Assembly (NCBI GenBank): GCA_020058975.1
Contig: JAGVDA010000266.1
Location: 1-64,000, forward strand
Source: Thermosynechococcus sp. WC_1
GTDB lineage: Bacteria > Cyanobacteriota > Cyanobacteriia > Thermosynechococcales > Thermosynechococcaceae
Length of the DNA stretch: 64,000 nt
Direction of reading: 5' to 3'
A program made the translations under genes and the position numbers. Below, piece by piece: positions 60,416-63,993 of the stretch (position 1 is its first letter; the number at the start of each line of letters is the position of its first letter). The notes under the pieces are model-generated. The model was not told the origin of the DNA. It saw only the letters and a program-made list of their open reading frames with translations, and did not search any database.

Positions 60416-61021
60416 TCAACTCTTCATTTCAGCCCACTTACCTTGTTCATCATAATCGAAAGTTTTTTTGAATGCTACACCAGATTTACGGTGAAACATA
60501 ACAATACCTTCTGGGTCCATGAAGCCGGGGGCGTGATAGCTTCCATTTTCCTTTAACATGGTCATTATGCCTTGAGCCGCACCATCCGGATTATTCAGAT
60601 ACTCATCTTGAATAAAAGTGTGAACAACCTCACAACATTGAGGACGATCTGGATTATCTTTCCAACGCAAGCTGTTGAAAAGTGCAAATCTTTTTTCTCC
60701 GCCAGTCAGCCCATAACCTCGCTTGATTCCAGAACCATACCACTCTCCGAAGTGTCGGCCTTCCCCTAGTTTGAAAAGCTCACTAACATTATGTGAAACA
60801 AATCGAGCAAAACCCATGTTATCCTTATCTAAGGATAACCAGCGGTTGCGCGAACCAGCAAATAGATAATAGCCCTCATGCTCTGTCAGAGCAGCTCCGG
60901 GTTCTGATTGATAATCAGCCTTAGGTCGCCAAGCAACCTGCGCATTAGTTCCATCAAGTTTTTCAGTTATCGTCCAACCCTGACTAAAACGAGTCAAACT
61001 AGAAAAGCGTTCAAAGTCCAT
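60416..61021 (-). CDS. RNA ligase, Rnl2-like
   Basis: 201 aa. Nucleotidyltransferase motifs: I EKLDGTNAQ with AMP-acceptor K21, III-like GEWYGSG (92-98), IV DPEGIVMF, V AFKKT. No C-terminal extension, so this is a minimal ligase core. It would seal nicked RNA, for example tRNA cut by host anticodon nucleases; it lies among the tRNA genes. Overlaps the truncated phosphoesterase by 11 nt. Confidence 0.85.
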   Translation of the reverse strand: MDFERFSSLTRFSQGWTITEKLDGTNAQVAWRPKADYQSEPGAALTEHEGYYLFAGSRNRWLSLDKDNMGFARFVSHNVSELFKLGEGRHFGEWYGSGIKRGYGLTGGEKRFALFNSLRWKDNPDRPQCCEVVHTFIQDEYLNNPDGAAQGIMTMLKENGSYHAPGFMDPEGIVMFHRKSGVAFKKTFDYDEQGKWAEMKS

Positions 61022-61863: not shown

Positions 61864-61944
61864 TGGACCCCCAGACAGGATTCGAACCTGCATTTTCATC
61901 CAGTTATCCGTTTCTTGGTTCGTAGCCAAGGGGAATACTGAGGG
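61864..61944 (-). tRNA. Atypical tRNA-Arg (ACG), no normal D arm
   Basis: Acceptor CCCTCAG/CTGGGGG, anticodon arm CTTGG-CTACGAA-CCAAG, T arm GCAGG-TTCGAAT-CCTGT, encoded CCA; 81 nt. Only 7 nt separate acceptor and anticodon stems, so no D arm can form, while the variable region is 22 nt. It fits between neighbours with 1-nt gaps. Confidence 0.55.
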
Positions 61945-61945
61945 A

Positions 61946-62020
61946 TGGTAGTCCGTGAGAATTATGCTATCCCGACCTTCCCCTTGTAAGGGGGACGCTC
62001 TACTTCTGAGCTAACGGACC
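61946..62020 (-). tRNA. tRNA-Val (TAC) with odd T loop
   Basis: Acceptor GGTCCGT/ACGGACT, D arm GCTC..GAGC, anticodon arm TCCCC-CTTACAA-GGGGA, encoded CCA. The T arm lacks TTCGA; a GGGA/TCTC stem closes the loop TAGCATAAT. Confidence 0.65.
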
Positions 62021-62988: not shown

Positions 62989-63066
62989 TGGTGCGCCTAG
63001 TAGGACTCGAACCTACAACCTACCGATTAGAAGTCGGCAACTCTATTCCAGTTGAGCTATAGGCGC
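62989..63066 (-). tRNA. tRNA-Arg (TCT)
   Basis: Acceptor GCGCCTA/TAGGCGC, anticodon arm GCCGA-CTTCTAA-TCGGT, T arm GTAGG-TTCGAGT-CCTAC, encoded CCA. It is just downstream of the tmRNA. Confidence 0.92.
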
Positions 63067-63072
63067 AAAAAC

Positions 63073-63302
63073 TATGGCCCGTTCTGTTCCACGGTGGGCC
63101 AAGCCGGTGTCAAGAGCAGTTAAGCTGCGAGACGAAGTGCCATTTCTGGCTGGTTATCATTGACAGTTATCAATGTTGATCTTTTAAGGTAATCACACCT
63201 ACAACCTCACACTAGCTTATCCCGTCAGTCGATACCCTTTCACCCCCATTATGGTGGAGGTGGGCGCACTCGAAGCGCCGTCCTGTCCGTATTCACTAGT
63301 GG
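63073..63302 (-). ncRNA. ssrA: Circularly permuted (two-piece) tmRNA
   Basis: Acceptor piece comes first: T arm GGCGC-TTCGAGT-GCGCC (63079-63063), CACCTCC, A, CCA (to 63252). After 4 nt the coding piece begins GGGGGTG (63247-63241), pairing with CACCTCC including the alanine-identity G3-U70 wobble. GGGTATCGACTGACGGG resembles the tmRNA D-loop region, and CTAGTG pairs with CACTAG of the acceptor piece as helix 2. After ATAACT the tag frame reads VNDNQPEMALRLAA-stop (63164-63120). A TGGCCC/GGGCCA fold (63101-63075) closes it. Exact ends are estimates. Confidence 0.9.
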
Positions 63303-63434
63303 TCAGCGATTGTTCCTCAAAACTTCCTGCATAAACTTCTTAAAGTCGGCATCACTTCCGGTTCCTTTGCCTAAATTAGCAGCGGTGCAAACAAATTGCA
63401 CATTTCCTTCTCCGCTGTCAACAGATAGTTTCAC
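63303..63434 (-). CDS. 43-aa protein, GTG start
   Basis: GTG at 63434 overlaps the end of the nucleotidyltransferase gene. Reads (M)KLSVDSGEGNVQFVCTAANL then GTGSDADFKKFMQEVLRNNR and stops directly before the tmRNA. Function unknown. Confidence 0.55.
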   Translation of the reverse strand: MKLSVDSGEGNVQFVCTAANLGKGTGSDADFKKFMQEVLRNNR

Positions 63435-63993
63435 TCACCATATCCGTGAAGTTTAGATCAACCCCTAAAATCCACTTATGTGAAGGATACCTTGGAACCC
63501 AACGAGAAAACCTATGAACACTGCTAGCCAGCGCCAGTGGTGATTCTGATCTTATCAGGCGAAAAACCTTATCATCATGATCTTCCAAATAGCCCTTGCT
63601 TCTTTCCAAGTATTTTCCATTAAAAGAAATTTGACAAAGACCATAATCGAATCTCTGAGTTATATATTGAATACTCCAATTCACAAAAATTAGTTGGATT
63701 GGGGGAAGTCCTTCAACATCCATATTAGTCACTAATATAATTTCTCTCATAGATTCAGGATACCAAGCATCGGTATCATTTTGCTCAGGTTCTTTTCCCC
63801 CTAATAATTTGTTAAGGGCTGTAGCTTCACTTTCTGAGCCACAAGCTACAAAGAAATCTAAATCTTTTACATCTAGGCCATGATCTAAATCTCTTAAAGA
63901 CCCTCCAGCAAGAACTACTTTAGAATGAATAGTTTGAAACTTAAGTAGAAGATCGACCCATTCTTTTGGAATGTCTTTTTCGGTAATCATCAC
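63418..63993 (-). CDS. Nucleotidyltransferase, CCA-adding-like head domain
   Basis: 191 aa. VVLAGGSLRDLDHGLDVKDLDFFV (about residues 26-49) is the G-G-S/R-D..D-L-D signature of the polymerase-beta fold used by CCA-adding enzymes and poly(A) polymerases; QLIFVNW may give the third acidic strand region. It lacks the helical tail of full CCA enzymes. All tRNAs here already encode CCA, so repair of trimmed ends or another nucleotidyl transfer is more likely. Start ATG at 63993 or 63990. Confidence 0.65.
   Translation of the reverse strand: MMITEKDIPKEWVDLLLKFQTIHSKVVLAGGSLRDLDHGLDVKDLDFFVACGSESEATALNKLLGGKEPEQNDTDAWYPESMREIILVTNMDVEGLPPIQLIFVNWSIQYITQRFDYGLCQISFNGKYLERSKGYLEDHDDKVFRLIRSESPLALASSVHRFSRWVPRYPSHKWILGVDLNFTDMVSETIC

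Follow-up and report, generated by a model that had tools for sequence, protein, structure and literature searches.

The minus strand of the window, the whole 64,000-nucleotide stretch of DNA that was analysed (bases 1–64000 of a 75,082-bp tailed-phage contig), encodes a complete, phage-borne, circularly permuted tmRNA (ssrA) gene with the alphaproteobacterial-style order of its parts, a reading to which we assign a probability of about 0.88. ARAGORN called a permuted tmRNA (tmRNA*) at positions 63344–63029 of the minus strand, with the tag VNDNQPEMALRLAA and a stop. The Rfam model RF04321 (tmRNA_permuted), which has a gathering score of 47, matched positions 63314–63120 of the same strand with 100.7 bits (E = 2e-18) over 213 of 213 model positions. 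The original prediction of a phage-encoded circularly permuted tmRNA, for which a covariance model of permuted architecture had been proposed as a check, is borne out by the agreement of the two methods, and all the elements that it listed are present. It located the gene at 63073–63302 without giving a strand; the gene is there, on the minus strand, with its core at 63314–63120. Because the ARAGORN span overlaps the downstream tRNA-Arg at 63066–62989, the true 3′ end of the tmRNA is more likely at about 63067 than at 63029, and processing of the tRNA-Arg 5′ end could define it. The sequence alone does not fix where the acceptor piece starts, and the upstream limit of 63344 is approximate.

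The sequence, read by eye, has the gene order acceptor piece, 4-nt spacer and coding piece (Table 1). As had been predicted, the acceptor half is placed before the GGGGGTG 5′ half, with CCA followed by TAAT and then by G1. The acceptor stem contains the proposed seven base pairs, including the alanine identity pair G3-U70 (63245 opposite 63258), and the helix-2 strands CAG/CTG, CACTAG/CTAGTG and ACAA/TTGT pair, by eye, in the way described. The predicted tag frame ending in TAA was recovered by both ARAGORN and translation.

Table 1. Features of the permuted tmRNA locus in the window.
Feature	Position	Strand	Basis and details
Circularly permuted tmRNA (ssrA) gene, approximate full extent	63067–63344	−	ARAGORN tmRNA*, RF04321
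Acceptor piece: helix-2 5′ strands, T-arm, acceptor 3′ strand, A73, CCA	63252–63314	−	Sequence, RF04321 alignment
T-arm GGCGC-TTCGAGT-GCGCC	63279–63263	−	Sequence; T-loop UUCGAGU intact
Acceptor 3′ strand CACCTCC	63262–63256	−	Sequence
A73; CCA	63255; 63254–63252	−	Sequence
Intervening sequence UAAU (TAAT), 4 nt, predicted to be removed in maturation	63248–63251	−	Sequence
5′ half of tRNA-like domain: acceptor 5′ strand, GGTATCGAC D-loop-like box, helix-2 3′ strands	63201–63247	−	RF04321, sequence
Acceptor 5′ strand GGGGGTG	63247–63241	−	Sequence; G1 is 63247
Pseudoknot PK1	63177–63200	−	S1 AGGT/ACCT 63200–63197/63190–63187; S2 TGATT/GATCA 63195–63191/63181–63177
Tag reading frame VNDNQPEMALRLAA and TAA	63120–63164	−	ARAGORN, translation; codons 63164–63123, stop 63122–63120
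3′ hairpin of coding piece, TGGCCC(ACCGTGGAACAGAAC)GGGCCA	63075–63101	−	Sequence; loop carries alpha-type ACC..G..AACAGAA motif
tRNA-Arg(UCU), directly downstream of tmRNA	62989–63066	−	ARAGORN, Rfam
Upstream gene, 191 aa, nucleotidyltransferase-like by eye	63418–63993	−	Counterpart in sister phage

The resume codon of the tag is GUC (63164–63162), which encodes valine, an uncommon residue at this position. The tag frame ends with hydrophobic residues and AA, followed by the stop. Its start (-ND-) and end (-LAA) resemble those of most sampled viral permuted tmRNA tags, such as ANDNYQPEMALAA and ANDNNQPEMALAA, and also those of alphaproteobacterial tags. A motif similar to that in the loop of the 3′ hairpin occurs in the alpha_tmRNA consensus and in the tmRNA of a sister phage described below. 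The window gene shares with the alphaproteobacterial permuted tmRNA (RF01849; Caulobacter ssrA) the gene order, the -ND-/-LAA tag and the AACAGAA hairpin motif, but it differs in its 4-nt intervening sequence and in its score of 41.8 bits with RF01849 (alpha_tmRNA), which is below the cut-off of 50. The scores with beta_tmRNA (RF01850, 61.3 bits, cut-off 84) and cyano_tmRNA (RF01851, 43.8 bits for a partial model match, cut-off 70) are also below the cut-offs, and therefore the window tmRNA is divergent.

A sister phage, IMGVR_UViG_3300025126_000016 (74,263 bp), has a terminase 77% identical to that of the window phage. It was the only one of 21 related records with a match to RF04321 (94.4 bits). 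The records comprise the sister, seven named phages (Seuss, KB12-38, JWF, 2-1, Lumi, EAb13 and Mystique) and 13 other viral contigs, most of them fragments, and RF04321 was not found in any of the named phages or the other contigs. The two genomes share the order of DNA ligase, the 191-aa gene or its relative, tmRNA, tRNA cluster and helicase. The ligases of this shared region are 69% identical, and the 191-aa protein, for which there was no Pfam hit, is 38% identical over 106 aa to its sister counterpart (E = 1e-21). In the sister, this relative is split into two overlapping reading frames (L059 7228–7853) by a frameshift or a sequencing error.

In both tmRNA genes, the distance from G1 is 47 nt to the start of PK1 and 83 nt to the resume codon, and PK1 has the same geometry (S1 of 4 bp, L1 of 1 nt, S2 of 5 bp, L2 of 0 and L3 of 5 nt). 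The stems differ: AGGU/ACCU and UGAUU/GAUCA in the window, and GAGC/GCUU and UGGCU/AGCCA in the sister. The sister tag, ANDNDMPVMKMAIAA and a stop, differs from that of the window, with ND near the start and AA at the end retained. The PK1 geometry, with no more than one G-U pair allowed, occurred in 0.14% of dinucleotide shuffles of the window sequence and 0.24% of shuffles of the sister sequence, figures that serve as a guide rather than a strict test, as the geometry was picked after viewing both sequences. A generic PK1 search in 204 viral permuted tmRNAs was barely above shuffles (33% versus 26%), and therefore the support for PK1 is drawn from the sister-phage comparison only. Since the PK1 and tag offsets are identical despite the changed stems, the RNA appears to be maintained and functional. 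The comparison of these two sequences is the main evidence, and it argues for the window tmRNA being kept by selection.

Host ssrA genes are common integration sites of phages (PMC9004378), and the window gene could be a degenerate or captured, non-functional remnant of a host ssrA, for example from imprecise prophage excision. The low scores with the lineage-specific models would fit such an origin. We consider it very improbable: a tyrosine integrase was not detected on the contig, none of the acceptor stem, T-arm, PK1 and tag frame is disrupted, and the retention of the structure at the same locus of a diverged sister, with changed stems, speaks strongly against it. The permuted tmRNA of the window is probably working.

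The sister tmRNA differs from that of the window in passing the RF01849 cut-off (100.6 bits) and in containing an 88-nt intervening sequence (L058 1562–1650) in place of the 4 nt. This intervening sequence is tRNA-like (RF00005, 25.1 bits, cut-off 29, E = 1e-3), with a 10-bp closing helix and the T-arm GCAGG-TTCAATT-CCTGC. Besides the sister phage, 24 distinct viral sequences were seen to hold a tRNA or tRNA-like element in the segment that would be removed. A targeted scan with a tmRNA-signature filter gave 35 loci (within L299–L394) with 25 distinct intervening sequences of 76–96 nt and a tRNA-type T-loop, TTCRANT, which is present by construction because the scan selected for it. Closing helices of 9–14 bp surround nearly all of these sequences, and several members have only two paired T-stem positions. 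One intervening sequence (L340) contains an intact tRNA-Ala(TGC). An intact tRNA-Ala inside the permuted tmRNA of a nominally archaeal genome was previously reported as a single case and called unique (PMC11915505). We speculate, tentatively, that phage permuted tmRNAs might be sites where nested tRNAs or tRNA-mimic processing signals recur. The window holds the minimal-spacer form only.

The contig encodes a terminase, portal, major head protein, DNA polymerase, ribonucleotide reductase, helicase and primase. The permuted tmRNA gene is positioned at the 5′ end of a cluster of twelve tRNAs called by ARAGORN and two further Rfam tRNA hits. The two hits, at 61949–62020 (47.3 bits) and 61867–61944 (29.5 bits), were not called by ARAGORN, and the first has an unusual T-arm. 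The cluster also includes a weakly RNA ligase-like protein (60416–61021; PF09414, 26.6 bits, cut-off 27), which could be a tRNA-repair enzyme. No matching stretch of at least 20 bases was found at the contig ends, and the contig may be incomplete. A lytic-type lifestyle of the phage is plausible, given that a search of the contig for a tyrosine integrase gave none. No match to SmpB was found on the contig, and therefore SmpB of the host would be needed.

The contig was binned into a cyanobacterial metagenome-assembled genome (MAG), and it is extremely unlikely that the tmRNA gene belongs to this cyanobacterium instead of a phage. The terminase, portal, capsid, DNA polymerase, primase and tRNA cluster of the contig, as well as its listing in IMG/VR, argue against cyanobacterial ownership, and a separate, one-piece tmRNA with the tag ANNIVPFARKTVLATA is encoded in the bin. 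This tmRNA (C37 of the MAG, 2063–2454) differs in form from that of the phage, and a protein encoded next to it is 76% identical to one from an Acaryochloridaceae MAG. The single SmpB of the MAG is on another contig. Because the MAG tmRNA is one-piece with another tag and the MAG SmpB is elsewhere, the bin does not identify the host of the phage. Among named phages, those with the most similar terminases infect proteobacteria; by terminase and portal (37–48% identity), the nearest are Seuss (Caulobacter), JWF and 2-1 (Achromobacter), Lumi (Xylophilus) and KB12-38 (Pseudoalteromonas). Together with the type of tag, the terminase relatives lead us to infer a proteobacterial host. A search for terminase relatives in genome contigs found none and gave no host assignment.

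The original prediction considered a permuted tmRNA in such a phage unusual, which did not hold. Two-piece tmRNAs of phages are already published, with 53 putative ones in a 2022 survey (PMC9004378), and in a 2025 tmRNA database bacteriophages account for 79 sequences and permuted forms for 11,946 in total (PMC11915505). Exact-pattern scans of IMG/VR gave at least 120 matches with intervening sequences of 0–30 nt and at least 120 with 61–91 nt, which indicates well over 200 permuted tmRNAs, some of them on contigs that may carry host DNA. From the matches listed, 233 distinct sequences were extracted, and ARAGORN gave 164 tmRNA calls for this set. A spacer of 4 nt is among the shortest there but is recurrent: seven sampled sequences, including that of the window, have this length, and one has 3 nt. 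Permuted tmRNAs are thus already known from many phages, and the window gene adds one. When the tmRNA region was compared with named phages at the DNA level, all the matches listed were to tRNAs, and a megablast of 24 kb found nothing. The tmRNAs of mycobacteriophages of the Bxz1/Wildcat type are one-piece and not permuted. Mycobacteriophages such as Bxz1 and Wildcat resemble the window phage in carrying ssrA in the phage genome (PMC4131195). Methylophilales phage Melnitz and its relatives share with the window a phage-borne permuted ssrA of alphaproteobacterial style, and in Melnitz, too, an integrase was not found (PMC9004378). Melnitz is a 141-kb myophage in which ssrA is linked to a glutamine riboswitch (PMC9004378), whereas no Rfam riboswitch was found beside the window tmRNA. 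Unlike Melnitz, the window phage is related to Seuss and JWF, and its ssrA heads a tRNA cluster.

Based on established tmRNA biology, the function of the window RNA can be proposed. The tmRNA would be transcribed together with the tRNA cluster as a single precursor. RNase P would cut before G1 and before the adjacent tRNA-Arg, and 3′ trimming would remove the UAAU spacer to give a two-piece RNA. The A73-CCA end would be charged by AlaRS, and the two-piece RNA, together with host SmpB and EF-Tu, would enter ribosomes stalled on broken or nonstop mRNAs, which is likely to be frequent while host mRNAs are degraded in infection. The tag A-VNDNQPEMALRLAA would be added and the ribosome freed, and through the LAA end of the tag the product would be targeted to ClpXP-type proteases of the host. 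Alternatively, the RNA could mainly inhibit host trans-translation through competition for SmpB, as proposed for mycobacteriophage DS6A, the domain-only tmRNA of which provides a precedent (PMC4131195, PMC11915505). This inhibitory role has only a slight chance of being correct, as the window RNA, unlike that of DS6A, retains PK1 and a complete tag frame with its stop codon, none of which a decoy would need. The phage probably carries the tmRNA, like its tRNAs, to sustain translation capacity during infection, with tag-directed redirection of proteolysis as a possible secondary role. The previously suggested rescue of ribosomes on cleaved mRNAs and redirection of host proteolysis are reasonable inferences.

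The gene adds a structurally intact permuted tmRNA for a lineage of phages whose distant relatives include Seuss (Caulobacter) and JWF (Achromobacter). Comparison with the diverged sister suggests that PK1 and the tag frame are under selection. Because one and the same locus can hold an intervening sequence of 4 nt or one that is tRNA-like, the processing of two-piece tmRNAs becomes testable.
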